A stretch of 64,000 nucleotides of DNA from Streptomyces globisporus (lineage in GTDB: Bacteria; Actinomycetota; Actinomycetes; Streptomycetales; Streptomycetaceae). This document shows, piece by piece, positions 19,104 through 39,532 of the stretch. The stretch covers positions 1-64,000 of the forward strand of contig BMTG01000009.1 in NCBI GenBank assembly GCA_014649555.1, read 5' to 3'. The notes under the pieces were generated by a model. That model saw only the letters and a list, made by a program, of their open reading frames with translations, had not been told where the DNA came from and did no database searches. The translations under genes were made by a program, and so were the position numbers. The stretch's first letter is position 1. The number at the start of each line of letters is the position of its first letter.

Positions 19104-22100
19104 ATGGCGGAGAAGAACCTGATCGACAGAGGGACGAGCCGTCGGCTCGCCCCCGGTGACGCCTCACCCGCCCTCGGCCCCCTGGCCCCGTTCGGGCGCG
19201 CCCCCTCGGAGCCGTGGTGGCTGCCCGGTGTCGTCGGGGGCAGCACCTCCGGCGAACCCGCCTGGGCGGTCTTCGCCCGGGAGGCCGTGGCCGCCGCCCC
19301 GCGCGACGTGGTGGTCGCCGACCGGACATACCTGGGGCTCAGCGGCTTCGGACCGATCGTCGCGCCGTTCGTCGAGGCGGCGGCGGGAAGGCTCCGGGAC
19401 AGGTTGGCGGGCGTGGAGCCCGAGGGGGACGGGGCTCCCGTCCTGGTCGATTTCCGGCGGCAGTTGACCCGGCGGCTGGCGCGGGTCGCGGCGCGCACGC
19501 TCGTCACCGAGCTGCACGAGGCCCGGCGGCTGGGGCGGTTGAGCGGTGAGGGGTCCAAGGAGCGCTTCCGGGACTTCGTCACGTCGACCGCCCGGCGCGA
19601 CGGCCTCGACCGGCTCGTCGCCGGCTATCCCGTGCTGGCCCGCCTGCTCGCGACGGCCTGCCTCAACTCCGCCGACGCCTTCGCCGAGCTGGTCGCGCGG
19701 CTCGCCGCCGACCGGCATCTGCTGGCGCCGGCGGGGGTGCTCGGCGACCGGGGCGGAGCGCTCGGCACATCCACAGGGCCGGGCGCGCTCACCGGGGTCG
19801 AGGCCGGTGCGGGCGACAGCCATCGCGGCGGCCGGTCCGTGATGCTCCTGCGGTTCGCCGACGGCACCAGGCTGGTCTACAAGCCGCGTCCGCTCGCGGC
19901 GCACCGGCACTTCAACTCCCTTGCCGAGTGGTTCGGTTCGCTCCCGGGCGCCCCCGAGCTGCGGGTGCTGCGCGTCCTGGACCGGGGGGACTACGGCTGG
20001 GCCGAGTTCGTCGAGGAGCGGCCCTGCGCTTCGGAGGCGGAGACCCGGCAGTTCTACCGGCGTCAGGGGGCTCTGCTGGCCCTGCTGCACGCGCTGGACG
20101 GTACGGATCTGCACCACGAGAACCTGATCGCCTGTGGCCCGCACCCGGTCCTGGTCGATGTGGAGACCCTGTTCCACCCGCCGCTGGGGCCCGCCCGGTC
20201 CGCCGATCCGGCCGCCCGGGCCCTGCACGACTCCGTCCACCGGGTGGGCCTGCTGCCCCAGTTGCTCGTCGGTGACACGACCGCGCTCGACATGTCCGCC
20301 ATCGGCGGGGGCGGGGCCGCATCCTCCCCCATCGAGACCGCCGACTGGGCGGAGGCCGGGACCGACCGCATGCGGCTGGTGCGGCGGGCGGGCCGGTTCA
20401 CCGAGTCCGCCAACCGGCCCCGGCTCGGCACCGAGGCCGCCGACCCCTCCGCGTACACCGAGGCCCTCTGCGACGGCTTCCGCGCCGGGTACACCGCGAT
20501 CCACGACCACCGTGACGAACTCCTCGGTACGAAGGGGCCGTTGAGGCGGTTCGCGGGGGACGAGGTGCGGGTCGTCCCCCGCCCCACCTGGATGTACACG
20601 ACGCTGCTGGACGAGTCGACGCACCCCGACCTGATGCGGGACGCCACCGAACGGCACCGGGTGCTGTCCCTGCTGCGCACCCCGCTCCTGGGTGTCCCCG
20701 CGCTGCCCGGCGTGGAGGACGAGGAGATCGCGGAGCTGTGGTGCGGCGACGTGCCGGTGTTCACCACCCGGCCGGGCTGCGCGGAGCTGTGGAGCGGTAC
20801 CGGCCGTACGGTGGCGGGGCCGGCCCCCGACGGGTCCGCGACCGGGGCGGACGCCGCCACCGGTCTGGCGCGCGTCGAGGCGAAGGTACGCGCGATGGAC
20901 ACCGTCGACCGCCAGGACCAGGAACGGATCATCCGGACCGCCATGGTGAGCACATCGCCCCGGCCGCCGCACCGGCCGGGACCGGGCGGCCGGGCGCCGG
21001 CTGCGGCGATCGCACCGGAGCCCGAGCAACTGCTGTCCGCCGCACGGTCGGTGGGCGACCGGCTCGTCTCCCTCGCCTACCGGCACGAGGGCCGCACCAA
21101 CTGGATCGGGCTCGAACTGCTCGGCGAGCGCTACTGGCGGCTCACACCGATGGCGGCGGACCTGGCCGGCGGCTACCCCGGCCCCGCGCTCTTCCTGGCC
21201 CAACTGGCCGCGCTCACCGGCGTATCCCGGTACGCGGAGGTGGCCCGCGAGGCACTCGCCCCCGTCCCGGGGCTGCTGGACGCCCTGCACGGGCGGGCCG
21301 ACGAGCTCGGGGCCCTGGGCTCCGGCGCCTACGCGGGCCTCGGCGGCATCGCGTACGCGCTGACCGAGGTGGGCACGCTGCTGGGCGACCCGGAGGTGCT
21401 GGACCTGGCAGGTCCGGCCGTCCGGCTGAGCTGTGCGGCCAACGCGGCCGAGGACGGGTACGGGGTGCGCGGCGGCGCTGCGGGCGGGCTGGTCTCGCTG
21501 CTCGCGGTGTACCACGCCACCGGCCGCCCGCAGGCCTGGTGGGGCGCGGTGCGCTGCGCCGACCGGCTCGCCGCCGCTCCGGCCCCCGACACCGGAGGCT
21601 TCGCCGACGGGGCGGCCGGGATCGGCTGGGCGATGCTGCGCCTCGCGGGGGCCGGGGGTGACGCCCGCCACCGGAGCGCCGGTCTTGCGGCCCTGCGCCG
21701 GGCGACCGCGCTGACGGACGCCGCGACGGCGCCGGCGCCCGCCTGGTGCGACGGGGCGGCCGGGGTCGCGCTGGCGATCGCGGACAGCCCCGCAGCACGG
21801 GAGGACCCGGAGCTGTCCGGCTGGCTGGCGGCGCGCTCCGGCGAGCTGGCGGGCATCGGTCCGCTCGCCGACGACAGCCTGTGCCACGGGGAGTCCGGGC
21901 TGCTCGAACTCCTCGCCCACAGCGCGCTGCCCGCCCTCCTGCCCGACGTACGCACCGCGTGGATGCGCCGGGCCGGGACGCTGCTGGCCTCGGCGGACCG
22001 GGCGGGGCCGCAGTGCGGGACGCCCGGTGGCGTGCCGCACCCGGGTCTGCTCACCGGGCTCTCGGGCATCGGGCACGGGCTGCTGCGGGCGGGCTTCCCC

Positions 22101-22148
22101 GACCGGATCGGCTCCGCCCTGCTCCTGGACCCCTCCCGCGCCCCCTGA
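19104..22148 (+). CDS. lanM: Class II lanthipeptide synthetase LanM
   Basis: Bifunctional enzyme that phosphorylates and dehydrates Ser/Thr of a precursor and then cyclises through Cys. 1014 residues, normal LanM size. The N-terminal two thirds are the DUF4135 dehydratase domain (FRDFVTSTARRDGLDRLVAGYPVLARLL; RLVYKPRPLAAHRHFN; GTDLHHENLIACGPHPVLVDVETLF). The C-terminal third is a LanC-type cyclase with zinc ligands WCDGAAG (Cys about 882) and CHGESG (Cys927, His928), so the cyclase looks intact. The ATG at 19104 has GGGGAGG upstream; the frame opens at 18900 but that part is repeat DNA. It is followed 93 bp later by a candidate precursor that has no Cys, which is unexpected for an active cyclase. 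Cytosolic. Confidence 0.95.
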   Translation: MAEKNLIDRGTSRRLAPGDASPALGPLAPFGRAPSEPWWLPGVVGGSTSGEPAWAVFAREAVAAAPRDVVVADRTYLGLSGFGPIVAPFVEAAAGRLRDRLAGVEPEGDGAPVLVDFRRQLTRRLARVAARTLVTELHEARRLGRLSGEGSKERFRDFVTSTARRDGLDRLVAGYPVLARLLATACLNSADAFAELVARLAADRHLLAPAGVLGDRGGALGTSTGPGALTGVEAGAGDSHRGGRSVMLLRFADGTRLVYKPRPLAAHRHFNSLAEWFGSLPGAPELRVLRVLDRGDYGWAEFVEERPCASEAETRQFYRRQGALLALLHALDGTDLHHENLIACGPHPVLVDVETLFHPPLGPARSADPAARALHDSVHRVGLLPQLLVGDTTALDMSAIGGGGAASSPIETADWAEAGTDRMRLVRRAGRFTESANRPRLGTEAADPSAYTEALCDGFRAGYTAIHDHRDELLGTKGPLRRFAGDEVRVVPRPTWMYTTLLDESTHPDLMRDATERHRVLSLLRTPLLGVPALPGVEDEEIAELWCGDVPVFTTRPGCAELWSGTGRTVAGPAPDGSATGADAATGLARVEAKVRAMDTVDRQDQERIIRTAMVSTSPRPPHRPGPGGRAPAAAIAPEPEQLLSAARSVGDRLVSLAYRHEGRTNWIGLELLGERYWRLTPMAADLAGGYPGPALFLAQLAALTGVSRYAEVAREALAPVPGLLDALHGRADELGALGSGAYAGLGGIAYALTEVGTLLGDPEVLDLAGPAVRLSCAANAAEDGYGVRGGAAGGLVSLLAVYHATGRPQAWWGAVRCADRLAAAPAPDTGGFADGAAGIGWAMLRLAGAGGDARHRSAGLAALRRATALTDAATAPAPAWCDGAAGVALAIADSPAAREDPELSGWLAARSGELAGIGPLADDSLCHGESGLLELLAHSALPALLPDVRTAWMRRAGTLLASADRAGPQCGTPGGVPHPGLLTGLSGIGHGLLRAGFPDRIGSALLLDPSRAP

Positions 22149-22221
22149 CCCACAGCCCCACAGCCCCACAGCCCCACTGTCACACCCGTACAGCACCGAT
22201 CACCCATCACCGATCACCCAT
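22149..22221. repeat. Two short tandem repeats between lanM and the candidate precursor
   Basis: A 9-bp unit CCCACAGCC (or close) repeats about three and a half times from 22149. A 7-bp unit CACC(G/C)AT repeats four times at 22194-22221. They occupy nearly the whole 93-bp spacer upstream of the precursor. Such repeats can change length by slippage. Confidence 0.7.
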
Positions 22222-22241
22222 CAGCAGAGGATGAGGCAGAG

Positions 22242-22439
22242 ATGAAGCAGTTCGGCGAATCGGCCCTGCAGGCGTCCGGCGAGATCGCTCACGAGGGCAC
22301 CCCGGAGCACCCGGCAGGGCAGATCTCCCTCGGGTCCACCGGAGGGCTCGGTGCGCGCAGCAGACTCCTCAGCGCTTCGGAGGGCGAGAGCGGGTTCAGC
22401 CACGACCTGCCCTGGACCACCATGACCGCCCCGTGGTGA
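22242..22439 (+). CDS. Candidate LanM substrate peptide without cysteine
   Basis: 65 residues, ATG start, stop TGA. The N-terminal half is acidic and leader-like (MKQFGESALQASGEIAHEGT). GSTGG at 31-35 resembles a double-glycine cleavage site. The C-terminal half is rich in Ser/Thr and ends HDLPWTTMTAPW. There is no Cys at all, so ordinary lanthionine rings cannot form; dehydrated residues or another nucleophile would be needed. Assignment as the LanM substrate rests on its position just downstream of lanM on the same strand, its size, and the leader/core-like composition. No C39 peptidase transporter is nearby. Alternatives: a regulatory peptide, or a decayed precursor that lost its core. Confidence 0.6.
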   Translation: MKQFGESALQASGEIAHEGTPEHPAGQISLGSTGGLGARSRLLSASEGESGFSHDLPWTTMTAPW

Positions 22440-22518
22440 CCAGATCCGGCCAACTCGAAGGCAATTGAGCCGAATTGGCCCGCTGCCGTGGGAGTTGTCG
22501 CTCAAGTAATCTGCGGCC

Positions 22519-25449
22519 ATGCGAGCCACTTCGCCGGTCATCGTCGGTCGGGACGAGGAGATCGGACTGCTGAGCAGCGCCCTGGACGCCGTGCAACGGC
22601 GTTCGGGGCGCGCGCTGTTCCTCCTCGGGGAAGCCGGTATCGGAAAGTCCCGGCTGGTGGGCGAGTGCGCCTACCGGGCCTACGGGCTCGGCATGCCCGT
22701 ACTGCGCGGCCGGGCCACCTCGACCGGACTCGTCGTGCCGTTCCGCCCGCTCGCCGAGGCGCTGGCGTCCCGGTTCCGGGCGGCCGGCACCCCGACCGAT
22801 CCGGAGCTCACGCCCTACCATCCGGCGCTGGCCCGGCTGGTACCCGAGTGGCGCAGGGCCGGGTCGCCCGGTTACCCGGAGACGGTCGTGGAGCTGGCCG
22901 AGGCGCTGCTGCGGCTGCTGTCCGTGCTGGGCAGGGAGGCGGGCTGCACGATCCTGCTGGAGGATCTGCACGACTGCGACACGGAGACCGTCGCGGTCGT
23001 CGAGTACGTCATCGACAACCTCGCCGATCTGCCCGTCCTGTTCCTCGGCACCCTGCGCCCCGAGCCGGGCGCCGCGCTGGACCTCGTACGCTCCGCGGAG
23101 CGCCGACATGTCGCCACCGTGCGAGAGTTGGGGCCGCTGCACGACGACCAGGTGCGGGCGCTCACCGCCGCGTGTCTGGAGGCGGGGCCGCAGGAGATAC
23201 CGGAGGCGGTGCACCGGCGGCTGGTCGGGCGCGCCGCGGGCAACCCGTATCTGCTGGAGGTGCTGCTGGCGGACCTCATCGACACCGGCCGGCTCCGGCG
23301 GACGGACTGCGCCTGGGAGGCGGTGGAGCAGCCCGGCGAGTCCATCCCCTCGGACATCGTGCGCAGTTGGGCCCGCAGGCTGGAACGGCTGGACGAGCCG
23401 GTACGCGATCTCTTACTGGCGTCGGCCACGCTGGGCAGCCAGTTCTCGGTGACCGTGCTCCAGACCGTCACCGGGTTCGAGGACCGGGCCCTGTTCACGC
23501 ACCTGCGGTCCGCGGTGGAGGCCGGGGTGATCGCCCCGGACGGCGCGGCCCCCGACCGCTACACCTTCCGGCACTCGCTCACCGCCGAGGCCCTGATCTC
23601 CTCGCTCGTCCCGGCCGAGCGCGCGTCCCTGGCCCGCCGTGCCGCCACGGCCATCGAGCACTCCGGGGAGCCGCTGGACGAGGACGGGCGACAGCTCGTG
23701 GCCTCGCTGCAACTGGCGGCGGGCGACCGGGCCGGGGCGGCCCGCCAGTTCGCGGAGGCCGGAAGACGGATGCTCGCTTCGGGAGCGCACGGTTCCGCCG
23801 TGGTGCTGCTGGAGCGGGCGCATCCCCTGGCTGCCGAGGCCGACCGGGCCGCCGTCGCCGAGTCGCTGGCGGTCGCCCGGGCCGAGGGCGGCGATCTGGA
23901 CGGCGCACTGAAGCTGGCGGACGCGCTGCCGCCGGTTCCGGCGCGCTCCGAAGCCGCCGCCCGGCGCGGACAGTTCCACATCGACCTCGCCTGGGCGGCG
24001 GTGATGGCGGAGCGCACCGCCGATGCCGCGCTCCAGGTCGAGGCGGCCCGCGTACTCCTGGGCCCGGCGCCGCCCCCGGGCCGCCGGGCCGCGCTCGTGG
24101 TGGTCGACGGCTATCTGGCCCTGCTCCCCGGGCTCCCCGGGACCGGGCGGCCGCCCCGGGATCCGGTGGAGACCGAGCAGGCCGTCCAGAAGGCCGCCGA
24201 GACCGCCGAGGCCGAGGGGCTGCCCGTGGTGGCCTGCCAGGCCTGGCAGTTGCTGGCGCTGCTGCGGCGCGAGGAGGGCTTCGACGCGGCGGACGCCGCG
24301 CTGGAGCGGATGCTGTCGATCTCCACCGAACACGCCCTGCCCGTCTGGCGGGTGGAGGCGCTGGTGCGGCTGGGCGCGAACGCCTTCATGCGGACCGGGG
24401 ACGCCTCCCGGCTCCTCTCCGCCCGGGCGGCGGCCACCGATCTGGGCGCGCTGCTGCTGACCCGTACGGTCGACGGACTGCTCGCGATGAACGCGGTGCT
24501 GTGCGCCCGGTGGGAGGAGGCGCAGGAGATCATCGACCGCTCGGCCGAGGCCAGTGCCCGGGTCGGCGATCTGTCCGCCCACCGCTATCTGCTGCTGGCC
24601 GGGGCGACGATGGCCGCGCACCGGGGTCGGCGGCGGGACATGGACCGGGCGCTGGCCGCGTTCCGGCGGGCCGGTGGTGAGCAGTCGCTGCTGGTGCCGC
24701 TCCGGTCGGGGCTCTGCCGGGCGTTCGGGGCGCTGCTGGAGGAGGACCCGGAGCGGGCGGCGGCGGGCCTGGACGAGGCGCTGGCCTGGGAGCTGGACCA
24801 CCCGAGCTACTACTACCTGAGCGGGCGGTACGGGCTGCGCCCGCTGCTGCGGGTCCTCGCGGGGCAGGCGGACCGGACGGAGCTGGAGGAGGCGCGGGCG
24901 GCTCCCGGAGGCTGCCTCGCCTGGAACCGGCAGTTCCTGGACCTGGCCGACGCGGTGCTGCTGGGCCGGAAGGGGGACCCGGCCGGGGCCGCCCGGCTGA
25001 TGGCGTCCTTCACGCAGCGCTCCGCCCCCTTCCCGGTCGCCCACCACCTGGGGCTGCGGCTGGTCGCGGACGCGGCCCGGGCGGACGGGTGGGGTGAGCC
25101 GGTGGCGTGGCTGCGGACCGCCGAGGAGTTCTTCTACGGGGCCGGGGTGCAGCCGGTCTCCGCCGCGTGCCGGGCGGCGCTGCGGCAGGCCGGGGCGAGC
25201 GTGGGCCAGCACCGGGGCGGCTGGGACCGGATCCCGTCGCCGCTGCGGACCAGCGGGGTGACGCCGCGCGAGTACGAGGTGTTCGTGCTGCTGCCCGAGC
25301 GGCCCGGGAACCAGCAGATCGCCCGCCGGCTGTCGATCTCGCCCCGCACGGTGGAGAAGCACATGGCCAGCCTGCTGAACAAGACCGGCCGCGCGGACCG
25401 GGCGGCGCTGTGCGAGTTCGCCGCCGAGTGCGCGGCCGAGCCGGCCTGA
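22519..25449 (+). CDS. LAL-type LuxR-family regulator (AAA ATPase plus C-terminal HTH)
   Basis: 976 residues. N-terminal ATPase with Walker A GEAGIGKSRL (residues 37-46) and Walker B-like ILLEDLHDCDTETVAV. A long helical TPR-like middle follows, then a C-terminal LuxR helix-turn-helix (TPREYEVFVLLPERPGNQQIARRLSISPRTVEKHMASLLNK...). LAL proteins are large ATP-dependent activators common in Streptomyces antibiotic clusters, so this is probably a pathway activator for the RiPP genes around it. A -10-like TAATCT sits 6 bases before the ATG, suggesting a leaderless mRNA. The gene is 79 bp from the candidate precursor. Confidence 0.92.
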   Translation: MRATSPVIVGRDEEIGLLSSALDAVQRRSGRALFLLGEAGIGKSRLVGECAYRAYGLGMPVLRGRATSTGLVVPFRPLAEALASRFRAAGTPTDPELTPYHPALARLVPEWRRAGSPGYPETVVELAEALLRLLSVLGREAGCTILLEDLHDCDTETVAVVEYVIDNLADLPVLFLGTLRPEPGAALDLVRSAERRHVATVRELGPLHDDQVRALTAACLEAGPQEIPEAVHRRLVGRAAGNPYLLEVLLADLIDTGRLRRTDCAWEAVEQPGESIPSDIVRSWARRLERLDEPVRDLLLASATLGSQFSVTVLQTVTGFEDRALFTHLRSAVEAGVIAPDGAAPDRYTFRHSLTAEALISSLVPAERASLARRAATAIEHSGEPLDEDGRQLVASLQLAAGDRAGAARQFAEAGRRMLASGAHGSAVVLLERAHPLAAEADRAAVAESLAVARAEGGDLDGALKLADALPPVPARSEAAARRGQFHIDLAWAAVMAERTADAALQVEAARVLLGPAPPPGRRAALVVVDGYLALLPGLPGTGRPPRDPVETEQAVQKAAETAEAEGLPVVACQAWQLLALLRREEGFDAADAALERMLSISTEHALPVWRVEALVRLGANAFMRTGDASRLLSARAAATDLGALLLTRTVDGLLAMNAVLCARWEEAQEIIDRSAEASARVGDLSAHRYLLLAGATMAAHRGRRRDMDRALAAFRRAGGEQSLLVPLRSGLCRAFGALLEEDPERAAAGLDEALAWELDHPSYYYLSGRYGLRPLLRVLAGQADRTELEEARAAPGGCLAWNRQFLDLADAVLLGRKGDPAGAARLMASFTQRSAPFPVAHHLGLRLVADAARADGWGEPVAWLRTAEEFFYGAGVQPVSAACRAALRQAGASVGQHRGGWDRIPSPLRTSGVTPREYEVFVLLPERPGNQQIARRLSISPRTVEKHMASLLNKTGRADRAALCEFAAECAAEPA

Positions 25450-25544
25450 CAGGCGACGAGCCGGCCTGAGGAGCGACAAGCCGGCCTGAGGGGCGGCGAG
25501 CCGGACGTACCGCGTCGCGGGAATGCGCGTATGCGGGCCGGGCG

Positions 25545-25574
25545 CATGGGGGCCGGGACGGGCAACATGGGGGT
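25545..25574 (+). promoter_or_regulatory. Two CATGGGGG boxes 21 bp apart before the SARP gene
   Basis: CATGGGGG occurs at 25545-25552 and 25566-25573, two helical turns apart, about 140 bp before the SARP start. Similar boxes precede lanM (18973, 19005). The 258-bp gap 25450-25707 otherwise holds only a short repeated AGCCGG(C/A)CTG stretch at its left end. Confidence 0.35.
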
Positions 25575-25707
25575 GCCGGGCGGTTTCGGTCGGGTGCCCG
25601 GGCGGAAAATGCGGGCGGGGCCCCGATGTATGTGGGTCCGTGCGGCAGCAGGATCGGACGTGCGTACGGTCCAGTCCGCCGCCCGTCCCCCTCCCGGAGG
25701 CCCGCTG

Positions 25708-31630: not shown

Positions 31631-31682
31631 CGGCAGGCTCCCGGAGATCGGCATAGGGACGTGGGATGAGGGGCAAGCGCGG

Positions 31683-31777: not shown

Positions 31778-31804
31778 GCACGGCCCGGTGGTTCAGCGCT
31801 CAGT

Positions 31805-31954
31805 TCAGCGCTGCTGCTCGACGACGCTCAGCACGCTGATGCAGTTGCCGTCGGTGGTGTCGCCGCCCTGGACGGAGGTCTCCTGGAGGTCCAGGACGGA
31901 GTGCGCCTCGACCTCGGGGGTCTCGTCGCCGGCCGGCTTCGTGTTCTCGGACAT
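31805..31954 (-). CDS. lanA1: Class III lanthipeptide precursor 1 (VLDLQ leader, GNCISVLSVVE tail)
   Basis: 49 residues. Leader MSENTKPAGDETPEVEAHSVLDLQ carries the class III recognition motif (L/V)LDLQ at 20-24. A short variable linker (QGGDTTD) and the C-terminal segment GNCISVLSVVEQQR follow. The single Cys (38) precedes a Ser-x-x-Ser pair (40, 43), whereas labionin motifs read Ser-x-x-Ser...Cys. Thr26 and Ser27 lie upstream of the Cys. GGAG lies 5 bases before the ATG. It is a near copy of the precursor at 32035, probably from a recent duplication: leader and tail are nearly identical and the linker differs. The candidate modifying enzyme is LanKC downstream. Confidence 0.85.
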   Translation of the reverse strand: MSENTKPAGDETPEVEAHSVLDLQETSVQGGDTTDGNCISVLSVVEQQR

Positions 31955-32034
31955 GGTGATCTCCATCCACGGGATAGGCGGAATGCGGTGTGCGGAACGC
32001 GGTGTGACGGAAATGCGGTGTGCGGCGGGTGAGA

Positions 32035-32196
32035 TCAGTTCTCGACGACGCTGAGCACGCTGATGCAGTTGCCGGGCGGCGCGATGATGTCGCGGTCGGC
32101 GTTGACGGAGGTCTCCTGGAGGTCCAGGACGGAGTGCGCCTCGACCTCGGGGGTCTCGTTGGTCTCGTCGCCGGCCGGCTTCGTGTTCTCGGACAT
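32035..32196 (-). CDS. lanA2: Class III lanthipeptide precursor 2 (VLDLQ leader, GNCISVLSVVEN tail)
   Basis: 53 residues, first gene of the minus-strand operon precursor 2 - precursor 1 - MFS - lanKC. The leader MSENTKPAGDETNETPEVEA is followed by HSVLDLQETSV, a linker NADRDIIAPP unlike that of copy 1, and GNCISVLSVVEN. Compared with copy 1 it has three extra leader residues (TNE) and no C-terminal QQR. The single Cys again precedes the SVLS pair. GGAG stands before the ATG. The 80-bp space to copy 1 contains three GCGGTGTG units (31984-32020). The upstream gap 32197-32517 separates it from the divergent radical SAM gene and holds candidate activator sites. Confidence 0.85.
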   Translation of the reverse strand: MSENTKPAGDETNETPEVEAHSVLDLQETSVNADRDIIAPPGNCISVLSVVEN

Positions 32197-32327
32197 GGTG
32201 GTCTCCATCCACTCGTCACTGCGGGACCGGAACGTCCGGGGGAATTCCTCCGGTGTCCGGTGCGGCGGGCCGGTGCCTGCCGTTGCCGAGAAAGTTAGGA
32301 GGCCGGGCCTGGCGATCGCTTCGCCGC

Positions 32328-32431
32328 CGGTATGGCAGCGGTATCGGGCCAGCTCACGGCGGCCGGAGCACCCCCGCCGGGGCCGTTCACCACCCCGGGA
32401 ACCCACTGCGACCTGGGCCCATACCGCTGCC
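32328..32431. promoter_or_regulatory. Candidate activator site in the divergent RiPP promoter region
   Basis: CGGTAT occurs at 32328-32333 and 32339-32344, an 11-bp direct spacing as in SARP binding sites. GGCAGCGGTAT (32334-32344) recurs inverted at 32421-32431. A -10-like TAACTT on the minus strand (32291-32296) lies left of the repeats, toward the precursors. Inference only. The 321-bp gap has no gene. Confidence 0.4.
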
Positions 32432-32517
32432 GAAGCGCCTTCGGACCGTCCTCGAACCGGTGGCCCACAGCCTGGGTACGCGCCCGACGCGCCCCGGCCC
32501 CGAAGGAGGCGGCCCGC

Positions 32518-33690
32518 ATGGAACTCGCCGAACTCGTCGCACGGCGGCCCTTCCCCGCCGCAGGTCTGCTGCTCGGCCTCACCCGGCGCTGCCCGCTGAG
32601 CTGCGCGCACTGCTCGACCGGGTCGGGCCTGTTCACCCGCCAGGAGCCGGATGCCGGTCAACTGGAGCGGTTCGTCGGCTCGTTCACGGCGGAGAACCGG
32701 CCGGACGTGGTCATGCTCACCGGCGGGGAGCCGCTGCTCCTGCCCGCGCTCGCCGAGCGGCTGAGCACCCTGGCGCGGAGCGCCGGGTCCCGTACGGCAC
32801 TGCTGAGCGGCATGTTCTTCGCCCGGGGCGGAGCTCTTCCGGGCAGCCGGGGCGGGGCTTCCCGGGGCAGGCGGGGCGGGGGCTTCCCGGGCAGGCGCAG
32901 CGGAGCGATTCCGCCCGCCATCCTGCGCGCGATCCGCTCCGTCGACCATTTCTCGGCCTCGCTCGACGTCCACCACGAACGCGAGGTCCCCCGGGCCGAT
33001 GTGTTCCGCGCCCTGCAGCTCGTCCGGGAGGAGGGGGTGGCCGTGAGCCTCCACCTCACCGGGACGGGAGCCTCGGACCCGTATCTCGCCGATCTCACCC
33101 GGGCGGTGGAGAAGGAGTTCGACGGCCGGGTGCCGTGCCTGGTCAACGAGGTGCGGCCGTTCGGCCGGGCCGCTTCGTGGGCGCGGGCGGCCCGCACCGG
33201 ACCCGACCCGGCCGCGGCGTCCCCGTGCCCGATGGCCGCCTGGCCGGTGGTCGCCTTCGACGGCCGGGTGGTGGCCTGCTGCAACCAGGACACCGTGGAC
33301 CGCCGGCCCGTACCGCCCCATCTGGACCTCGGCCATGTCGCGGAGGACGACTGGGCGACCGTACGCAGCCGGGCGCTGGAATCCCCGGTGCTGCGGATGC
33401 TCCGCACGGTCGGTCCGACGCATCTGGCCGCCCGGTACGGTTCCGGTCCCCGACCGGGCTCCTACTGCGACGGCTGCCGGGCGCTCGGCGGCGACGAGGC
33501 GGTGGCGGCCGGGGCGCAGGCGGTGGCGGGCGGTGCGGCGGGGGCGCTGCTGGACATGACGGCCGCGATGCGCGGCTCGCGGGAGGGGGCGCAGGGCATC
33601 GTGCGCCGCCACGGCTGCGCGGTGTACGCGCCGTTGGTCGTCGCGGGCGGGCCGGACCTGCCGGAGACCGACGGACGGGACCTCCGGTGA
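32518..33690 (+). CDS. Radical SAM enzyme with SPASM/twitch-like C-terminal cysteines
   Basis: 390 residues. The SAM [4Fe-4S] motif CPLSCAHC (Cys25, 29, 32) is near the N-terminus, then VMLTGGEPLLLP, the SAM-binding GGE motif. The C-terminus holds SPCPMAAW, ACCNQD and YCDGC, the pattern of an auxiliary cluster domain as in peptide-modifying enzymes. Residues about 102-133 are an unusual Gly/Arg-rich insertion made of three similar units. GAAGGAGG lies 9 bases before the ATG. The gene starts an operon that overlaps the di-iron protein gene by 4 bases and diverges from the lanthipeptide precursors. Likely a RiPP-modifying enzyme; the substrate may be the 72-residue peptide at 34409 or one of the Cys-containing precursors. 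Confidence 0.9.
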   Translation: MELAELVARRPFPAAGLLLGLTRRCPLSCAHCSTGSGLFTRQEPDAGQLERFVGSFTAENRPDVVMLTGGEPLLLPALAERLSTLARSAGSRTALLSGMFFARGGALPGSRGGASRGRRGGGFPGRRSGAIPPAILRAIRSVDHFSASLDVHHEREVPRADVFRALQLVREEGVAVSLHLTGTGASDPYLADLTRAVEKEFDGRVPCLVNEVRPFGRAASWARAARTGPDPAAASPCPMAAWPVVAFDGRVVACCNQDTVDRRPVPPHLDLGHVAEDDWATVRSRALESPVLRMLRTVGPTHLAARYGSGPRPGSYCDGCRALGGDEAVAAGAQAVAGGAAGALLDMTAAMRGSREGAQGIVRRHGCAVYAPLVVAGGPDLPETDGRDLR

Positions 33691-34412
33691 GCGCCGGGGC
33701 ATCCGCGCGACTGCGGACCAAACTCCTCCTGCTGGAGCCGGAGTTCCGGGGCGCGACGCACCACATGTGGCGCCCCGAAGGGCTGTTGCCGCGCTACCGG
33801 ACGTATCTGTGCACGATGCATGCCGTCATCCGGGCCTCCGTGCCGCTGATGGAGCTGGCCCTCGACCGCCTCCGCGCCCGGGCCGCTTCCGGTGATCCGC
33901 TCGCGGCGCCGATCGCCGCGTATCTGGCGGAGCACATCCGGGAGGAGGAGGGCCACGACGCCTGGCTCCTGGAGGACCTCCGGGCGGCGGGCGGCCGGCC
34001 CGAGGACGCGCTCGACCCGCTGCCCCCTCCGCCGGTCGCCTCGCTCGTCGGGTCGCAGTACTACTGGATCGAGCACCACCACCCGGTCGCCCTGCTCGGC
34101 TACATCGCCGTACTGGAGGGCTACGCGCCCGCCCCCGGCCTGACCGACCGCATCGCCCGGCGCACCGGGCTGCCCGCCGCCGCCCTGCGGACCGTACGGG
34201 AACACTCGGTGCTCGACACGGAGCACCTGGACGAGCTGTACGCGCTGCTGGACCGGCTGCCGCTCGGCCGGGACCGGGAAGCGGCCGTGGCGGTCAGTGC
34301 CCTGCATTCCCTCGACGCGCTCACCCGGCTGTTCGTCCGGCTCGGGCGCTCCGCGCCGGCGCCGTCGCCGCGGGGAGCCGGACCTGTCTCACCGATGGGA
34401 GTCACACCATGA
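33687..34412 (+). CDS. Haem-oxygenase-like di-iron (HDO) family protein
   Basis: 241 residues of the iron-containing redox / TenA-PqqC-like all-helical fold. Metal-ligand regions visible are EFRGATHHMWRP, YLAEHIREEEGHDAWLLEDL (ExxxExxHD type) and VREHSVLDTEHLDELYALLD. Members oxidise or cleave C-H, C-N or C-C bonds with O2. The GTG start overlaps the radical SAM stop (GTGA) and the stop overlaps the next start (ATGA), so the three genes are tightly coupled translationally. Radical SAM plus HDO enzymes in one operon suggests two successive oxidative changes to one peptide. Confidence 0.85.
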   Translation: MSAGASARLRTKLLLLEPEFRGATHHMWRPEGLLPRYRTYLCTMHAVIRASVPLMELALDRLRARAASGDPLAAPIAAYLAEHIREEEGHDAWLLEDLRAAGGRPEDALDPLPPPPVASLVGSQYYWIEHHHPVALLGYIAVLEGYAPAPGLTDRIARRTGLPAAALRTVREHSVLDTEHLDELYALLDRLPLGRDREAAVAVSALHSLDALTRLFVRLGRSAPAPSPRGAGPVSPMGVTP

Positions 34413-34627
34413 CCGGACCACCCGATAGCGGCGAACGGCTGCCGCTGCCCGACGCGTTGTACGAGGCGGGCTTCCCCGTCGACCTGCTCACCGAGGAGCA
34501 GCGCGAGGTGCTGAGCGGGCTGACTCCGCAGGAGCTGGCGCTCCTGCTCGATGTGAAGAGCCGGCTGGACGCCGTGGGGCCGGAGGTCCAGGCGCACGGC
34601 GAGATCGCCGGGGGCGCGCTGTTCTGA
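34409..34627 (+). CDS. Small protein of 'aroma-sacti cluster domain' type; candidate RiPP precursor or carrier
   Basis: 72 residues, no Cys. The sequence runs LPLPDALYEAGFPVDLLTEEQREVLSGLTPQEL, then ALLLDVKSRLDAVGPEVQAHGEIAGGALF. It resembles the small proteins NCBI names 'aroma-sacti cluster domain-containing' (recalled, not searched). The middle is helical; the C-terminal GEIAGGALF could be a core or follower. ATGA overlap with the HDO gene ties it to the radical SAM/HDO pair. It may be the peptide substrate, or a partner that presents it. Confidence 0.7.
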   Translation: MTGPPDSGERLPLPDALYEAGFPVDLLTEEQREVLSGLTPQELALLLDVKSRLDAVGPEVQAHGEIAGGALF

Positions 34628-34749
34628 CCCCGGCCCGACCCGGTTCCGGCCGGTCGGCGGTACGGGCCCGGCGCCGGGATCACCGCCGCCGGGCCCCGTA
34701 CCCGCCCGATATCCCGGAGAGCCCGACATCCCGGAGAGAAGGACCCCTG

Positions 34750-37700
34750 ATGAACTGCCTCTCGTGCCAGCAGGACCTGCCGCCGACGGCCCGGTTCTGC
34801 TCGTCCTGCGGGACGCCGTGCGCGACCGCCGGGACTGCCGCGGCTGCCCCTGCCGTCGCGGTCACCGGGGCCGGGCCGGCCGCCGCCGCTCCCCCGCCCG
34901 GTGACGAACGCAAGCCGGTGACCGTGCTGTTCTGCGATCTCGTCGGGTCCACCGCGCTGTCCGGCGTGCTCGACCCGGAGACGCTGCGCACGGTGACCCT
35001 GCGGTACTTCGAGGCGATGAGCGCGGAGATCGTGGCGCGGGGCGGCACCCCGGAGAAGTTCATCGGGGACGCCGTGATGGCGGTCTTCGGCGTCCCGGTG
35101 GTCCGGGACGACGACGCCCGCCGGGCGCTGGCGGCGGCGCTCGGGATGCGTCGGGCGCTGGCTCGGCTGAACGAGGAGCTGACCGCCACTCTCGGCATCG
35201 AGCTGGCCGTCCGGATCGGCGTCAACACCGGTCAGGTGGTGGCGGGTTCGGACCGGACCGCCCGGCAGGCGCTGGTCTCCGGGGAGACCGTGAACATCGC
35301 CGCCCGGCTGGAGCAGAACGCGGGCCGGGGCGAGATCCTGATCGGTCCCGGGACGCTGCTCGCCGCCGGTCCGACGGTGAACGCCGAGCCCACCGGGCCG
35401 CTGCGGCTGAAGGGCAAGCGGGACAGCGTCGAGGCCCACCGGCTGCTCGCGCTGGGCGCGGACGACCCCGAGCTGCTGCGCCGTTTCGACGTTCCCTTCG
35501 TCGGGCGCGGCGCCGAGCGGCGGGCGCTCGACGCCGCGCTGGAGCGGACGGTGCGCGCGGGCGCGGCCGGACTGCTGCGGGTCACCGGGGAGGCGGGGAT
35601 CGGGAAGACCCGGCTGGTACGGGAGTGGCTGGCGGCGCGGTCGGCGTCCGGCGGACTCGCGTACGGGGCGGGGCGGTGCCGCAGTTACGGGGACCACGGC
35701 ACCCTCGCACCGCTGGCCGACGCGGTGCGTTCCCTGCTGGCCGCGACGGACCCCGCGGAAGGCGCGCGGGAGGCCGCCGACGGACTGGCGGTCGACGACG
35801 CGATGGCTCTGCTGTCCGGGGGCCTGCTGAGCGACGGTACGCCGAACGCGCCCTTCGAGGACATGTGCGCGGCCCTGACGACGGTCCTGGAACGGGCGGC
35901 CCGCTTCCGCCCGGTCGTCCTGGTGCTGGACGACTGGCACGCGGCGGCCCCGCTGCTGGTCCGCACGGCGCACCGGCTGACGGACGGACCGGGTTGCGCG
36001 GGTGTGCTGGTGCTCTGCGCCGGGCGGCCGGACGGTCCTGGCGAGGACGACGAACCGGCCGGTGCGCGGCCGTTGCTCCAGCTGACGGGGTTGCCGTACG
36101 AGGAGGCGGCCCGGCTCGCCGCCGTTCTCGCCGGCCCGGACGGCGGGCCCTGCGACGACGCCCGGCCCGCCGGGGACACGCCACCCGGCAACGATCTGCT
36201 CCTGGCGCGGGCCGGGGGCAACCCGCTCTACCTGGAACAGCTCCTGGTCGGTGACCGGACGGACGCCGGGGGCGGGGCGGCCGACGAGGAGTTGCCGCCC
36301 ACGCTCCAGGCCCTGCTGGGCGCGCGGATCGGTGCGCTGGCCCGGATGGAGCGCGATGTGGTGGATCTGGCCGCCGTGATCGGCCGGGAGTTCACCGCAC
36401 CGGAACTGGTCCGGCTCCAGCTGTACGTACGGGCCGGGGAGGGCCACGGGACCACTGCGCAACGGCGGCTCGTGGACGATGCGTTGGAGGCACTGGCCCG
36501 CCGTCGGCTGGTCGAGTCGGGTGCCCCCGGGGGCCGGGCGGCGGAGGCGGCGTACCGGTTCAGCAGCGGGCTCGTGCACGAGGTCGCGTACGCCTCGCTG
36601 TCCAAGCGGGCCAAGGCCGAACGCCACGCCTGGGCAGCGGAGTTGCCCAGCGTGCTGCGCGGTGGCGACGGTGCGGTCGGCGGCCATCTGGAGCGGGCCT
36701 ACCGCTACCGCGCCGAGCTGGGCCTGCTCGACGACCGGGCCCGGCGCCTGCGCGACCGGGCCGCCGCCGCGCTGGGCCGGGCCGGGGCGCAGGCCGCCGC
36801 CCGGTCCGACCTGCACTGGGCGCACGGCCTGCTGGAGCGGGCGGTGGACCTGCGCCCCGGCGACCCGGCGGCGACCCGGCGGCTCGGCGAGGTGCGGGTG
36901 GCGCTCGGCCGCACCGCACAGGGGGCAGAACTTCTGCTCCAGGTGCGGGAGATGGCGGCCGATCCGGTGGAGGCCGCGCACGCCCGGCTGGCGCTCGCGG
37001 TGCTGGACCCGGGCGGCCCCGGACCCGGCCCCGCCGCCGTGGCCCGTACCGTGCTTCCGGTGTTCGAGGCGGCCGGGGACTCGGTCGGCCGGGCGCGGGC
37101 TCATCTGCGGCTCGCCCAGCAGTTCCAGCGGTCCGGGCGGCACGAGGAGGCGGAGCGGGACCAGGCGCGGGCCCTGGAGCACGCCGTGCTGGCCGGTGCG
37201 GAGCCTGAACGGGCCGGGGCGCTCGGCGTGATCGGCATCTCCCTGTGGCGCGGGCCGGTCCCGGTGCCCGCCGCGGTGATCCGCTGCCGGACCCTGCTGG
37301 CCACGCACGGCGCGGGCCGCCCCACGGTCCGGGTCACCCTCAACTGCCCCTTGGCGGTGCTGTACGCGCTCCAGGACGCGGCCGAGGACGCGTACGGCTG
37401 CCTGGCCGAGGCGGAGCGGCTGGCCGGGAAGCTGGGGTTCGCCGAGGCGGAGGTCTTCCTGCCGATGTTCCGGGCGACGGTGGAGGCGCTGTCCGGCCGG
37501 AACGCCGCCGCGCTGGACCTGCTCGGCCGGGCGGACGCGGCGGCCCGGCGCACGGGGGCGACCGGAATGCGGACGGCGGTGGCGCTGGACGCGGCCCGCC
37601 TGGAGCTGGACGAGGGCCGGGAGGACCGGGCGGCCGAGCACCTGGCGGGTATCGGCGACGCGTCGGGGCTGAGCCGGGCGGACGCGGTGGACCTGGCGGG

Positions 37701-37989
37701 GCTGCGGGCCCGGCTGACGGCACGGGACCGACCCGAGGAGGCGGCCGCGCTCGCGGCACAGGCGGTGCGGGCGTCGCTGCTCACCGATTCCCCGCTGGTG
37801 CAGGCGACGGCCGAGCTGGACCGGGCGCACACGCTCGCCGCCCTGGGCCGGCTTCCGGAGGCCGCGGCGTCGGCCGGGGCGGCCGCGGTGCACTTCACCG
37901 GCAAGGGGCATCTGCCGGGGTTCCGCCGGGTCTCCGGGTTCCTCGCGCGCCCGCCCCTGCCGGTGGCCACGACGACGGAGAGGAGCTGA
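34750..37989 (+). CDS. Class III nucleotide cyclase fused to a STAND-type ATPase
   Basis: 1079 residues. A zinc ribbon (MNCLSCQQDLPPTARFCSSCG) begins the protein. The class III adenylyl/guanylyl cyclase domain follows (PVTVLFCDLVGSTALS, GGTPEKFIGDAVMAVFG, RIGVNTGQVVAG), with both metal-binding Asp positions. Then come an AAA/STAND ATPase (FVGRGAERRALDAALER, Walker A GEAGIGKTRL about residue 285, VVLVLDDWHAAAPLL) and a long TPR-like tail. No DNA-binding domain is seen. Likely a sensor that makes a cyclic nucleotide when its ligand is bound; the ligand is unknown. It is followed after 3 bases by the subtilase gene, so the two are co-translated. A repeated ATCCCGGAGAG lies before the start. Confidence 0.88.
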   Translation: MNCLSCQQDLPPTARFCSSCGTPCATAGTAAAAPAVAVTGAGPAAAAPPPGDERKPVTVLFCDLVGSTALSGVLDPETLRTVTLRYFEAMSAEIVARGGTPEKFIGDAVMAVFGVPVVRDDDARRALAAALGMRRALARLNEELTATLGIELAVRIGVNTGQVVAGSDRTARQALVSGETVNIAARLEQNAGRGEILIGPGTLLAAGPTVNAEPTGPLRLKGKRDSVEAHRLLALGADDPELLRRFDVPFVGRGAERRALDAALERTVRAGAAGLLRVTGEAGIGKTRLVREWLAARSASGGLAYGAGRCRSYGDHGTLAPLADAVRSLLAATDPAEGAREAADGLAVDDAMALLSGGLLSDGTPNAPFEDMCAALTTVLERAARFRPVVLVLDDWHAAAPLLVRTAHRLTDGPGCAGVLVLCAGRPDGPGEDDEPAGARPLLQLTGLPYEEAARLAAVLAGPDGGPCDDARPAGDTPPGNDLLLARAGGNPLYLEQLLVGDRTDAGGGAADEELPPTLQALLGARIGALARMERDVVDLAAVIGREFTAPELVRLQLYVRAGEGHGTTAQRRLVDDALEALARRRLVESGAPGGRAAEAAYRFSSGLVHEVAYASLSKRAKAERHAWAAELPSVLRGGDGAVGGHLERAYRYRAELGLLDDRARRLRDRAAAALGRAGAQAAARSDLHWAHGLLERAVDLRPGDPAATRRLGEVRVALGRTAQGAELLLQVREMAADPVEAAHARLALAVLDPGGPGPGPAAVARTVLPVFEAAGDSVGRARAHLRLAQQFQRSGRHEEAERDQARALEHAVLAGAEPERAGALGVIGISLWRGPVPVPAAVIRCRTLLATHGAGRPTVRVTLNCPLAVLYALQDAAEDAYGCLAEAERLAGKLGFAEAEVFLPMFRATVEALSGRNAAALDLLGRADAAARRTGATGMRTAVALDAARLELDEGREDRAAEHLAGIGDASGLSRADAVDLAGLRARLTARDRPEEAAALAAQAVRASLLTDSPLVQATAELDRAHTLAALGRLPEAAASAGAAAVHFTGKGHLPGFRRVSGFLARPPLPVATTTERS

Positions 37990-37992
37990 CCG

Positions 37993-38931
37993 ATGACGAC
38001 CACGGAACCGGCACAGGCACCGGCGGAACCGGTACGGACCCGGGTGGGTACCGGCCCGGGTCAGGGTCTGACCTGGAGTCTGCGCGGGCGCGGACCCGAC
38101 GACGTACCGGTGCTGGCGGACGCCGGGCCGCCGCTGGGCCGCCCGGCCGGGCCCGCCACGGGGCGCGGTGTCCGCGTGTGCGTCGTGGACTCGGGTGTGG
38201 AGCGCGACCATCCGCTGGTCGGCCCGTTGGCCGGCTCCTGGGTGGTCGTCAAGGACGGGGAGAGCGGCGGGATCACCGTCGAGCCGACCACGACCGGGGA
38301 CACCTGCGGCCACGGCACCGCGTGTGCGGGCATCATCCGCCGGACCGCCCCGGAGTGCGAGATCCACAGTGTGCGGGTGCTCGGCGAGCGGTTCTCCGGC
38401 ACCGGCGACATCCTGATGGCCGGGCTGCGCTGGGCGGTGGAGCAGCGGTTCGACGTGGTCAACCTCAGCCTGTCGACGACCCGCACCCGGTTCGCGCAGG
38501 AGCTGCACAGCCTGGCGGACAGCGCCTACTTCGCCCGTACGGTGATCGTCGCCTCGGCGCACAACACCCCGGTGGAGAGCTTCCCGTGGCGGTTCGCGTC
38601 CGTGATCTCGGTGGGCAGCCACCAGGAGGACGACCCCGAACTGCACCTGTACAACCCCGACCCCCCGGTGGAGTTCTTCGGGCCGGGCCAGAACGTGACG
38701 GTGCCCTGGCTGGGCGGCCGGACGATCCGCACCACGGGGAACAGCTTCGCCACGCCGTACGTCGCCGGGCTCTGCGCCCGCGTTCTGTCCGCGCATCCGC
38801 GGATGACGGCCTTCCAGCTCAAGAACGCCCTCTATCTCTCCGCGGCCAACGTGCGCCACGCGCCGCGTCCTTCTTCCACTCCCGCTTCCTCCACTCCGGC
38901 AGGAGATACCCGTGATGACTCCGAGAACTGA
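37993..38931 (+). CDS. Intracellular S8 (subtilisin-like) serine peptidase
   Basis: 312 residues with the full triad: Asp66 in CVVDSGVERDHP, His107 in TCGHGTACAGII and Ser251 in GNSFATPYVAG. There is no signal peptide or membrane helix, and the N-terminal 60 residues are an Ala/Pro/Gly-rich extension, so the enzyme is probably cytosolic. It starts 3 bases after the cyclase stop. The C-terminus overlaps the GAF gene by 20 bases. Two jobs are possible: removing a RiPP leader, or acting as the effector of the cyclase/ATPase sensor. It is small for the family and lacks an I9 propeptide, fitting an intracellular type. Confidence 0.9.
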   Translation: MTTTEPAQAPAEPVRTRVGTGPGQGLTWSLRGRGPDDVPVLADAGPPLGRPAGPATGRGVRVCVVDSGVERDHPLVGPLAGSWVVVKDGESGGITVEPTTTGDTCGHGTACAGIIRRTAPECEIHSVRVLGERFSGTGDILMAGLRWAVEQRFDVVNLSLSTTRTRFAQELHSLADSAYFARTVIVASAHNTPVESFPWRFASVISVGSHQEDDPELHLYNPDPPVEFFGPGQNVTVPWLGGRTIRTTGNSFATPYVAGLCARVLSAHPRMTAFQLKNALYLSAANVRHAPRPSSTPASSTPAGDTRDDSEN

Positions 38932-39532
38932 TTCCGCCGCCGCCTTCTCCTCCACCGCCACGGTCGCCGACGCGCCGCGCAGCGAACTCCTCCAGTCGGT
39001 CGTCGATGTGGCCCGTGCCATCTTCGGGGCCGAGGCCAGCTCGGTGTTCCTGCTCGACGAGGAGGCCGACGAGCTCGTCTTCCAGGCCGTGTCCGGGCAG
39101 GGCGAGGAGTTCCTCGTGGGCCGCCGGTTCCCGGCCGGGCGCGGGATCGCCGGGTGGGTGGCGACCTCCGGCGAGCCGATGGTGGTCGACGACCTGAGCG
39201 CCGATCCGTCCTTCGACCGCTCGCTGGCGGAGTCGACCGCGTACGTACCGAACGCCCTGATGGCGGCCCCGCTCATCAGCGACGCCCGGATCCTGGGCGT
39301 CCTGGAGGTACTGGATCCCTCCCCGCAGGCCCGGTCGGGGGTACGGGAGCTGGATCTGCTCGCGATGTTCGCCCGGCAGGCCGCCGCAGCCCTGCGGGTG
39401 ATCACCCCGGAGCGCGTCCGGGAGGCCGAGGAGCGCACGGTCCTGGCCGGGCACACGCTGGCGGGCGCGGAACGTGAGGACGCGCTGCGACTGCTGGGTA
39501 GCCTGGAGCGACTGCTGCGGGGCGTCGGCTGA
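38912..39532 (+). CDS. GAF-domain sensor protein
   Basis: 206 residues. A single GAF domain covers about residues 25-170 (LLQSVVDVARAIFGAEASSVFLLDEEADELVFQ; GEEFLVGRRFPAGRGIAGWVATSGEPMVVDDLSADPSFD; MAAPLISDARILGVLEVLD). A short helical tail follows with no output domain, so it probably acts as a small-molecule-binding partner, for example of cyclic nucleotides. GTG 38912 (AGGAG 6 bases upstream) or ATG 38915 could be the start. It overlaps the subtilase gene, completing a cyclase - protease - GAF unit in which the cyclase product could be the GAF ligand. Confidence 0.85.
   Translation: MMTPRTDSAAAFSSTATVADAPRSELLQSVVDVARAIFGAEASSVFLLDEEADELVFQAVSGQGEEFLVGRRFPAGRGIAGWVATSGEPMVVDDLSADPSFDRSLAESTAYVPNALMAAPLISDARILGVLEVLDPSPQARSGVRELDLLAMFARQAAAALRVITPERVREAEERTVLAGHTLAGAEREDALRLLGSLERLLRGVG

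Follow-up and report, generated by a model that had tools for sequence, protein, structure and literature searches.

A stretch of 64,000 nucleotides from Streptomyces globisporus (assembly GCA_014649555.1, contig BMTG01000009.1, positions 1 to 64,000 of the forward strand; this whole stretch is called the window) holds a locus for ribosomally synthesized and post-translationally modified peptides (RiPPs), and we consider it probable, on balance, that this locus is modular. A constant chassis of six genes would be joined to an exchangeable cassette of modifying enzymes; precursors on both sides would share a short tag, (E/D)VxAH; a divergent promoter region would couple the two sides; and a chassis protease of the S8 family would read the tag. 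Sequence comparison bears out the conservation of the chassis, the exchange of the cassette, the presence of the tag across cassettes and in a protein of 72 amino acids (aa) from the chassis, and the mirrored repeats of the promoter region. The chassis and cassette of the window, with the activator gene beside them, are as follows.

25531-27654, plus strand: SARP/AfsR-like activator with NB-ARC
27641-30259, minus strand: LanKC, class III synthetase, in the exchangeable slot (module C; NF038151, 871 bits, cut-off 575)
30272-31654, minus strand: MFS exporter (module C)
31805-31954, minus strand: LanA3b, class III-type precursor, 49 aa, leader PEVEAHSVLDLQ
32035-32196, minus strand: LanA3a, class III-type precursor, 53 aa, leader PEVEAHSVLDLQ
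32317-32353, minus strand: operator-like repeats facing the precursors (a weak GCTG, then ACCG, ACCG and AGCG, at 11-bp spacing; 13 of 16)
32423-32459, plus strand: operator-like repeats facing rSAM (ACCG, AGCG, ACCG and ACCG, at 11-bp spacing; 15 of 16)
32518-33690, plus strand: chassis radical S-adenosylmethionine enzyme (rSAM; PF04055, 41.7 bits, cut-off 29.5; 32518 is the best-placed start)
33687-34412, plus strand: chassis haem-oxygenase-like di-iron oxidase (HDO; PF14518, 49 bits, cut-off 28.9)
34409-34627, plus strand: 72-aa aroma_sacti-domain protein, proposed precursor (NF045560, 82 bits, cut-off 30)
34750-37989, plus strand: Zn-ribbon/adenylate cyclase/STAND/TPR protein (chassis)
37993-38931, plus strand: S8 subtilase (chassis), proposed reader of the (E/D)VxAH tag
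38912-39532, plus strand: GAF-domain protein (chassis)

Every part that a first-pass annotation of this DNA had named was recovered where that annotation placed it, by a GC-frame gene call with Pfam and NCBIfam scans. Its three candidate precursors are a 65-aa open reading frame (ORF) 3′ of a LanM gene and the two class III-type ORFs upstream of the MFS gene, both of which have the leader MSENTKPAGDE..TPEVEAHSVLDLQET, and the divergent region that it marked at 32197-32517 does lie between LanA3a and the rSAM start codon at 32518. Overlaps of a few bases join the rSAM stop to the HDO start and the HDO stop to the start of the 72-aa gene, which suggests translational coupling of the three genes. 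The S8 gene follows closely behind the cyclase/STAND gene, and the GAF gene overlaps it.

The chassis was followed by a scan of named genomes with an rSAM alignment, which found 126 relatives; the best 80 of these 126 loci were analysed. All six chassis genes (rSAM, HDO, 72-aa, cyclase/STAND, S8 and GAF) are present in 69 of the 80, and the 11 partial loci reach within 2-1106 bp of the end of the available sequence. Gene order and strand are unbroken throughout, with gaps of less than 700 bp in 64 loci, and SARP homologues lie near the chassis in 68. The sources include Streptomyces, Kitasatospora, Streptacidiphilus, Actinacidiphila, Actinospica, Catenulispora and Phytohabitans.

What stands in the exchangeable slot varies. 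By tblastn matches at E up to 1e-5, some of them of low identity, the cassette has LanKC relatives in 44 loci, a second-rSAM/glycosyltransferase/prolyl oligopeptidase set in 24, both in 3 and neither in 9, among which two (L102 and L124) are cut LanKC-type loci. The alternative cassette consists of a small precursor of 37-41 aa (e.g. MPENTNPKPVEDEDIEVVAHGEAEEDEAGCIINNSSDIS), a glycosyltransferase-like protein, two DUF6895 proteins, a second rSAM that is related to RiPP maturases with matches below their cut-offs, an MFS protein and a prolyl oligopeptidase. Several loci (e.g. L160, L167 and L169) have the cassette on the far side of the chassis. In a tree of 48 of the 70 LanKC sequences extracted, whose long branches were flagged (L159 above all), chassis-linked and unlinked sequences split with 2 label changes, compared with a mean of 16 for shuffled labels.

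Small ORFs beside the chassis bear the tag regardless of cassette type. It was sought in the 80 loci among 941 ORFs, each 30-110 aa long and scoring no less than 5 of 6 for a ribosome-binding site, a set that left out genes found by tblastn and the 72-aa genes. EVxAH occurs in 77 of these ORFs, from 63 loci; none of the other 23 orders of E, V, A and H at the same spacing occurs in more than 4 ORFs, and 14 of them are absent altogether. The wider pattern [ED][VI]xAH matches 88 ORFs from 67 loci; since the pattern itself fixes A and H, their constancy among these 88 is no evidence. LanA3a homologues, found by homology and not by pattern, keep VxAH in 11 of 11 cases, and LanA3a-like precursors at E<1e-10 are confined, among 150 genomes of the genus, to the window's own and the 11 that have both chassis and LanKC (next match, E 0.0096). 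A tagged ORF is present in all 47 chassis-linked LanKC loci, in 42 of them with an LxLQ-like element in the same ORF. For 20 unlinked LanKC loci the script gave a candidate in 19, which by eye comprise 18 class III precursors and one spurious ORF (L181); the tag is absent from all the precursors recognised in these 18 and occurs in a single unrelated ORF, in L196.

Since the tag stands before LxLQ in 53 of the 88 tagged ORFs and after it in 5 (one in L157, three in L172 and one in L177, where the tag adjoins the likely core), the two are, as far as their positions tell, independent elements; the remaining 30 ORFs have no LxLQ. In multi-core precursors the tag recurs, before every core in L155, L067 and L080, and between the core repeats in L153 and L177, where the first repeat is without it. 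PatA likewise is said to have a recurring site in multi-core cyanobactin precursors. L067 and L080 stood initially among the controls; they are chassis flanks of the SARP-divergent subtype, with the three-core tagged precursors further out, and a third control match, an ORF of another kind in L069, likewise comes from a chassis flank. The multi-core precursors of L153 (6936-7860), L155 (9403-9684), L067 (2144-2413) and L080 (3765-4040) repeat their core three or four times, with sequences such as DTPWCVINTG, EVICGVFDK and NPAWCGVHQE. Scans of those from L153, L155 and L067 gave no family match at cut-off, and neither did ten tagged precursors against NCBIfam models.

The tag might be merely inherited from a common ancestral leader, with no present function. 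Common descent is plausible, as LanKC-type and second-rSAM-type precursors share an N-terminal M-x-ENTxP stretch. Nevertheless we regard loss of function as very unlikely: VxAH is retained in every LanA3a homologue, an alignment of 23 homologues of the 72-aa protein has only six invariant columns, which include V, A and H, and the position of the tag relative to LxLQ varies.

The two sides of the locus also face a common intergenic region. An alignment of 29 divergent regions has ACCG units repeated at 11-bp spacing and mirrored towards both genes, and operator-like sites were therefore scored as four ACCG at 11-bp steps (maximum 16, threshold 13). The best-scoring site of the window is that at 32423, facing rSAM with 15 of 16, and 5 of the window's 17 sites at or above threshold fall in the divergent region; ten base shuffles of the window gave on average 2.5 sites scoring 13, 0.2 scoring 14 and none higher. 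Within 700 bp upstream of rSAM in the 80 loci, such a site faces rSAM in 69, faces away in 51 and does both in 48. As a held-out test, a site lies at most 400 bp upstream of rSAM in 42 of the 51 loci unused in the alignment (27 of the 29 used). Of the tagged ORFs, 56 of the 69 that diverge from rSAM have a site upstream, as do 6 of the remaining 19; so do 11 of the 22 second-cassette glycosyltransferase genes, which lie just behind the precursor. Upstream of other genes the counts are 0/32 for LAL, 0/67 for SARP, 0/41 for LanKC, 1/41 for MFS, 7/79 for HDO, 4/77 for the cyclase, 1/71 for S8, 0/69 for GAF, 2/21 for the second rSAM and 2/23 for prolyl oligopeptidase, from a total of 402 sites in 1.53 Mb, both strands. 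SARP operators are heptamer direct repeats at 11-bp spacing. The four ACCG-like units upstream of rSAM, mirrored to the precursors, resemble them in spacing; the divergent region is probably a bidirectional, putatively SARP-driven promoter.

We propose the S8 protease as the likeliest reader of the tag, on account of its catalytic residues, its database matches and the precedent of AmyP and PatA. Residues D66, H107, N191 and S251 are invariant in 14 aligned sequences; we take the first, second and fourth to be the catalytic triad and N191 the oxyanion Asn. The protein matches subtilisins and, below cut-off, the maturation protease QhpE. According to the part of PMC10885120 consulted, AmyP is an S8 protease that serves class III leaders bearing a (T/S/A)EVE motif, and PatA cuts after G(L/V)E(A/P)S.

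Evidence on which protein could be the reader also comes from a different cluster type. Seven genomes with two aroma domains each have clusters that we label StsA-like, from the NCBIfam name alone; they fall into two groups of near relatives and so amount to two independent cases. Here an aroma precursor-like ORF is flanked by an rSAM and, on the other side, by a LuxR-aroma fusion and then cyclase/STAND, with S8 (55-57% identity) and GAF in the five whose contig reaches so far; no match to the chassis rSAM or HDO was found in the seven at E up to 1e-3. Four of the genomes combine an AVEGQ precursor with a LuxR-aroma tail of EVEGQ-DLKLL, and three a DVVAH precursor with a tail of EVWAH-DLKLL or DVWAH-DLKLL. 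In L202 (9265-9462 and 10081-10293) and L203-L208 the LuxR-like region and aroma_sacti domain form a single frame, with DLKLL behind the precursor's own form of the motif. On this comparison the tag is not dependent on the chassis rSAM or HDO, and its form matches within StsA-like loci. As tag readers rSAM and HDO are unlikely, since three of the seven aroma-domain clusters hold VxAH without both. A class-wide sample, in which 12 of 394 genomes (the window's own included) were over the cut-off, is mixed in what it shows; in one of its loci (L230) a LanKC precursor with GEVQAH is paired with an aroma tail of PEVEAH-TIGGLLF.

A functional tag could still be read by some other constant part, namely cyclase/STAND, a leader-binding surface of rSAM or HDO, or the exporter. 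Most class III precursors carry the tag at a distance from the core, and four loci (L221, L223, L225 and L227) have it without a nearby S8. Yet the three VxAH-bearing clusters just mentioned have cyclase/STAND, S8 and GAF and lack rSAM and HDO, exporters vary among cassettes, and tag repeats between cores fit a protease, as do the S8 recognition sites of AmyP and PatA described in the consulted part of PMC10885120. We hold a reader other than S8 to be unlikely, though it is a better candidate than a tag with no function.

Whether the locus forms one system was followed in a genus sample of 150 genomes (149 besides the window's own), with gene layouts taken from tblastn of window proteins on stretches of the relatives. 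Relatives of rSAM at E<1e-40 occur in 20 of the 149; G028 adds a 21st, on a fragment of a contig that carries the same genes. At 72% identity or more, LanKC orthologues are present in the window's genome and 11 of the 149, each about 2 kb from rSAM and divergent from it, and the remaining LanKC matches listed, at E up to 1e-100, have at most 47% identity. LanM relatives of at least 67% identity, sought with part of LanM as query, occur in 16 of the 149: the 11 with LanKC and G015, G057, G004, G041 and G075 (next match, 49%). The 11 have the window's order of LanM, precursor, LAL, SARP, LanKC, MFS, LanA3, rSAM, HDO and 72-aa, an arrangement that, being held by 11 of 149 genomes, is on this comparison not due to chance. 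The cyclase gene was seen in 10 of them and S8-GAF in 9; in the two others the contig ends after the 72-aa gene (G127) or S8-GAF lies beyond the stretch read (G072).

Other genomes take the block apart. G075 has only LanM, precursor and LAL between LacI and AP_endonuc_2, with the same flanks as the window and no chassis at the site. G015, G057, G004 and G041 (the last on two contigs) have LanM, LAL and SARP with the rSAM unit, without the window's flanks and with about 8.5 kb of different genes at LanKC's place. SARP is divergent from the rSAM unit in G108, G070 and G095, and G024 has the rSAM unit alone; in the stretches read from these four there is neither a LanM nor a LanKC orthologue. In G003 the rSAM unit lies beside different LanKCs, of 32-33% identity. 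By these layouts the region is made up of three modules, A (LanM, precursor and LAL), B (the six-gene chassis) and C (LanKC, MFS and precursors).

The features of module A are the following.

19104-22148, plus strand: LanM, ATG start (TIGR03897, 698 bits, cut-off 304); the dehydratase motifs of its DUF4135 domain are intact, and its LanC-like domain has the usual GFSHG His substituted
22242-22439, plus strand: candidate LanM substrate, 65 aa, with no Cys and no (E/D)VxAH tag
22519-25449, plus strand: LAL-type LuxR regulator

Both the LAL (22519-25449) and the cyclase/STAND protein (34750-37989) have partial matches, below cut-off, to a TOMM kinase/cyclase model (TIGR03903). Beyond module A, LacI lies on the LanM side in all 11 genomes, with GFO/IDH behind it in 10 (not in G100), and AP_endonuc_2-GH3-S37 on the opposite flank in the nine where this was read. 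A strongly coding ORF of 1257 codons (45469-49242 of the window) adjoins the locus and is kept in close genomes where read, and the window's own genome (G000) has four more LanC-like genes outside the window, on contigs C22, C1 (two places) and C3.

The first-pass annotation had supposed one or two products under common control. For LanKC and rSAM, common control is supported by their linkage in the window's genome and 11 of 149 others, the mirrored repeats in their intergenic region, and the tag that the class III precursors have in common with the 72-aa protein. LanM is not tied in likewise: it stands alone in G075, its precursor lacks the tag, and in the window no site of 13 or more precedes LanM, its precursor or LAL (one, at 20808, is inside LanM), for which reason we reject membership of LanM in the same regulon. 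Among relatives the modules do occur apart in the case of LanM, and of rSAM without LanKC; a LanKC orthologue without rSAM was not found in the genus sample. Judged by these comparisons, the LanKC and rSAM units belong together, and LanM is a separable neighbour.

A stricter separation would make of the region three independent clusters that lie side by side, each with its own product and regulator. The solitary LanM-LAL of G075 at the same site, chassis without LanM or LanKC, the lack of operator-like sites upstream of LanM or LAL in the window, and conserved neighbouring genes in close genomes agree with this. However, chassis and cassette share a tag and a divergent promoter region with mirrored repeats, and their linkage spans Streptomyces, Kitasatospora, Streptacidiphilus, Catenulispora and Phytohabitans. 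For the region as a whole we find independence quite unlikely; for LanM alone it appears the better reading, and module A is probably a neighbouring, separately regulated module.

The LanM itself is unusual. In the window's and 15 further LanMs (that of G127 was left out of the alignment) the dehydratase motifs are kept, as are a C, a C and an H that are presumably zinc ligands, whereas all 16 have D, E, T or N in place of the GFSHG His (reference residues from LicM2), and D, E, G or R stands for the His of WCHG. Among 14 homologues of the LanM precursor, 9 have no Cys, 3 have one in the first half or middle, and 2 have one in the C-terminal third; those of G075 and G057 have one Cys near the C-terminus. 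The family, in the window and 15 genomes, has Cys-poor substrates that end in, for example, DLPWTT, DTPFTT or DMPYTT. Of the marks of class II there is a LanM synthetase, without a Cys in the core or a complete LanC-type active site. A dehydratase-only role is likely for the window's LanM, and with its Cys-free precursor it may yield a dehydrated, thioether-free peptide. The pairing of LanM and LanKC with a Cys-less precursor is already known: such clusters were identified earlier (Zhang et al. 2015, as related in the consulted part of Walker et al. 2020, PMC7268733).

The 72-aa protein ends in PEVQAH-GEIAGGALF. All 79 homologues found in the 80 loci contain [ED]VxAH and end in [AG]G[AG]x[LV][FW]. 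It has no Cys, for which reason a sactipeptide reading was rejected, and it scores 27.1 bits against NF045559 (cut-off 75). A structure model (mean pLDDT 71) consists of helices with a low-confidence tail from residue 63. The chassis rSAM has CxxxCxxC and five further invariant Cys, and its best sequence matches among solved structures are YydG and PqqE. Putative ligands of the HDO (E87-x2-H90, E144 and H173-x3-D177-x2-H180) are invariant in 12 aligned sequences and are, we assume, a Glu/His/Asp di-iron ligand set; among solved structures its best match is a haem-oxygenase-like protein whose function is unknown. Another locus, L228, has four tandem aroma ORFs (9746-10675) beside two rSAMs, HDO, MFS, cyclase/STAND, S8 and GAF. 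Their tails are DVEAH-VMGASFW, DVMAH-SEVTGAGLW (twice) and VDTAH-GPQDGGLFW, and from these tails the four look like a family of precursors.

Instead of a precursor, the 72-aa protein might be a regulatory co-substrate, whose tail is clipped as a signal and so reports on the activity of S8. The almost unvarying tail of the chassis protein is in keeping with such a role, as is the finding that in seven relatives the domain follows a LuxR-like region in one frame with a constant DLKLL tail. On the other side are the overlap of its gene with that of HDO, which overlaps rSAM in turn, the tandem copies of L228 with differing aromatic-ended tails, as precursors would have, and the use of the domain as the N-terminal part of Cys-bearing precursor-like ORFs. 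We think a precursor the better reading and a purely regulatory role unlikely, although of the alternatives weighed here it is the one that we take most seriously.

Several observations weigh against a modular locus with S8 as reader. The window has more operator-like sites (17) than its shuffles (about 3), so that such sites have a higher background in real sequence than the shuffles suggest. A few of the 88 tagged ORFs are spurious, such as plus-strand ORFs in L130 and L135, and 13 of the 80 loci (L146, L152, L154, L161, L164, L166, L168-L171, L173, L175 and L176) have no tagged ORF by the criteria of the script; nine of the 13 belong to the 27 loci with the second type of cassette, and L146 and L154 have repeated tags in ORFs whose start signals are weaker. 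Where LxLQ follows the tag in a class III precursor, 18-32 residues separate the tag from the next Cys, so that S8 alone would not free such cores. L221, L223, L225 and L227 have a tagged aroma precursor and no S8 match in the 20 kb read; their genomes have the S8 set elsewhere, with an EVEGQ tail. L229 and L231 pair an EVEGH tail with a DVVAH precursor, and a strict matching of tags between precursor and aroma tail is thus broken by both kinds of locus. Chassis-linked LanKCs fall in two groups of the tree, and a single origin is not rejected (p-AU 0.176), so that repeated recruitment of LanKC is not shown. Finally, neighbouring genes too are conserved in the 11 close genomes, and for this reason their synteny is weak functional evidence.

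Several known systems share parts with this locus. Actinobacterial LanM+LanKC clusters likewise have both synthetases in one cluster and a Cys-less LanM precursor; the part of Walker et al. (PMC7268733) consulted makes no mention of a chassis, a shared tag or cassette exchange. SapB/AmfS-type class III systems have in common with it the LanKC synthetase and the LxLQ leader element (LDLQ in both window precursors), but the 18 precursors from unlinked loci lack the tag, and the window cores (GNCISVLSVVE) put Cys ahead of Ser and do not fit the class III core motif Sx2Sx3C, which is characteristic and not universal (PMC7268733, part consulted). StsA-related sactipeptides (NF045560/NF045559) share the aroma domain, and other aroma clusters share cyclase/STAND-S8-GAF; by comparison of the models, the 72-aa protein differs in having no Cys, a GG-x-L-F tail and a gene that overlaps HDO. 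With AmyP and PatA, as described in the part of PMC10885120 consulted, the chassis protease shares the S8 family, catalytic residues and a short Glu/Val recognition motif; in the present case one S8 accompanies several maturases, and the motif continues as VxAH. A defence system was considered and set aside, as the padloc matches, for the cyclase to a Pycsar cyclase domain and for S8, look to be at the level of domains only. The conflict systems of Kaur et al. 2020 (PMC7159879) have cyclase and subtilisin themes in common with the locus, and no such gene set was seen in the part consulted. Neither the chassis nor the tag, nor the term 'aroma-sacti', was found in the open-licence PubMed Central (PMC) literature, and none of the matches listed there for the tag strings concerned RiPPs by title; the search covered that literature only, and the absence of chassis and tag from print is accordingly weak. 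Within what could be searched, the parts are of known kinds and their arrangement and the cross-class tag appear to be new.

In the mechanism that we propose, a bidirectional and probably SARP-driven promoter would couple the chassis to one cassette, here LanKC-MFS with two class III-type precursors, and SARP would turn on both sides together. The cassette enzymes would modify their own precursors, and rSAM and HDO the short aromatic-ended tail of the 72-aa protein. S8 would then cut both the cassette precursors and the 72-aa protein at or just after VxAH, much as PatA does at repeated sites, and cyclase/STAND with GAF may gate the system on some signal.

RiPP clusters are usually classified by one modifying enzyme, which has a leader of its own. 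In the loci described here a single processing unit seems to be used by several classes of enzyme, by way of a portable tag of five residues. We suggest tentatively, as a possibility that falls a little short of even, that this is an actinobacterial RiPP platform, whose chassis takes maturases of different chemistry because their precursors bear the same protease tag, and also makes a near-invariant peptide of its own, perhaps an internal signal tying production of the variable peptides to the cyclase/STAND sensor. The model predicts an unseen small peptide from the rSAM-HDO pair. If S8 does read the tag, (E/D)VxAH would provide a removable leader handle for joining maturases of different classes, a means of searching genomes for tagged precursors whose class is unknown, and a test of how parts are exchanged between RiPP clusters.

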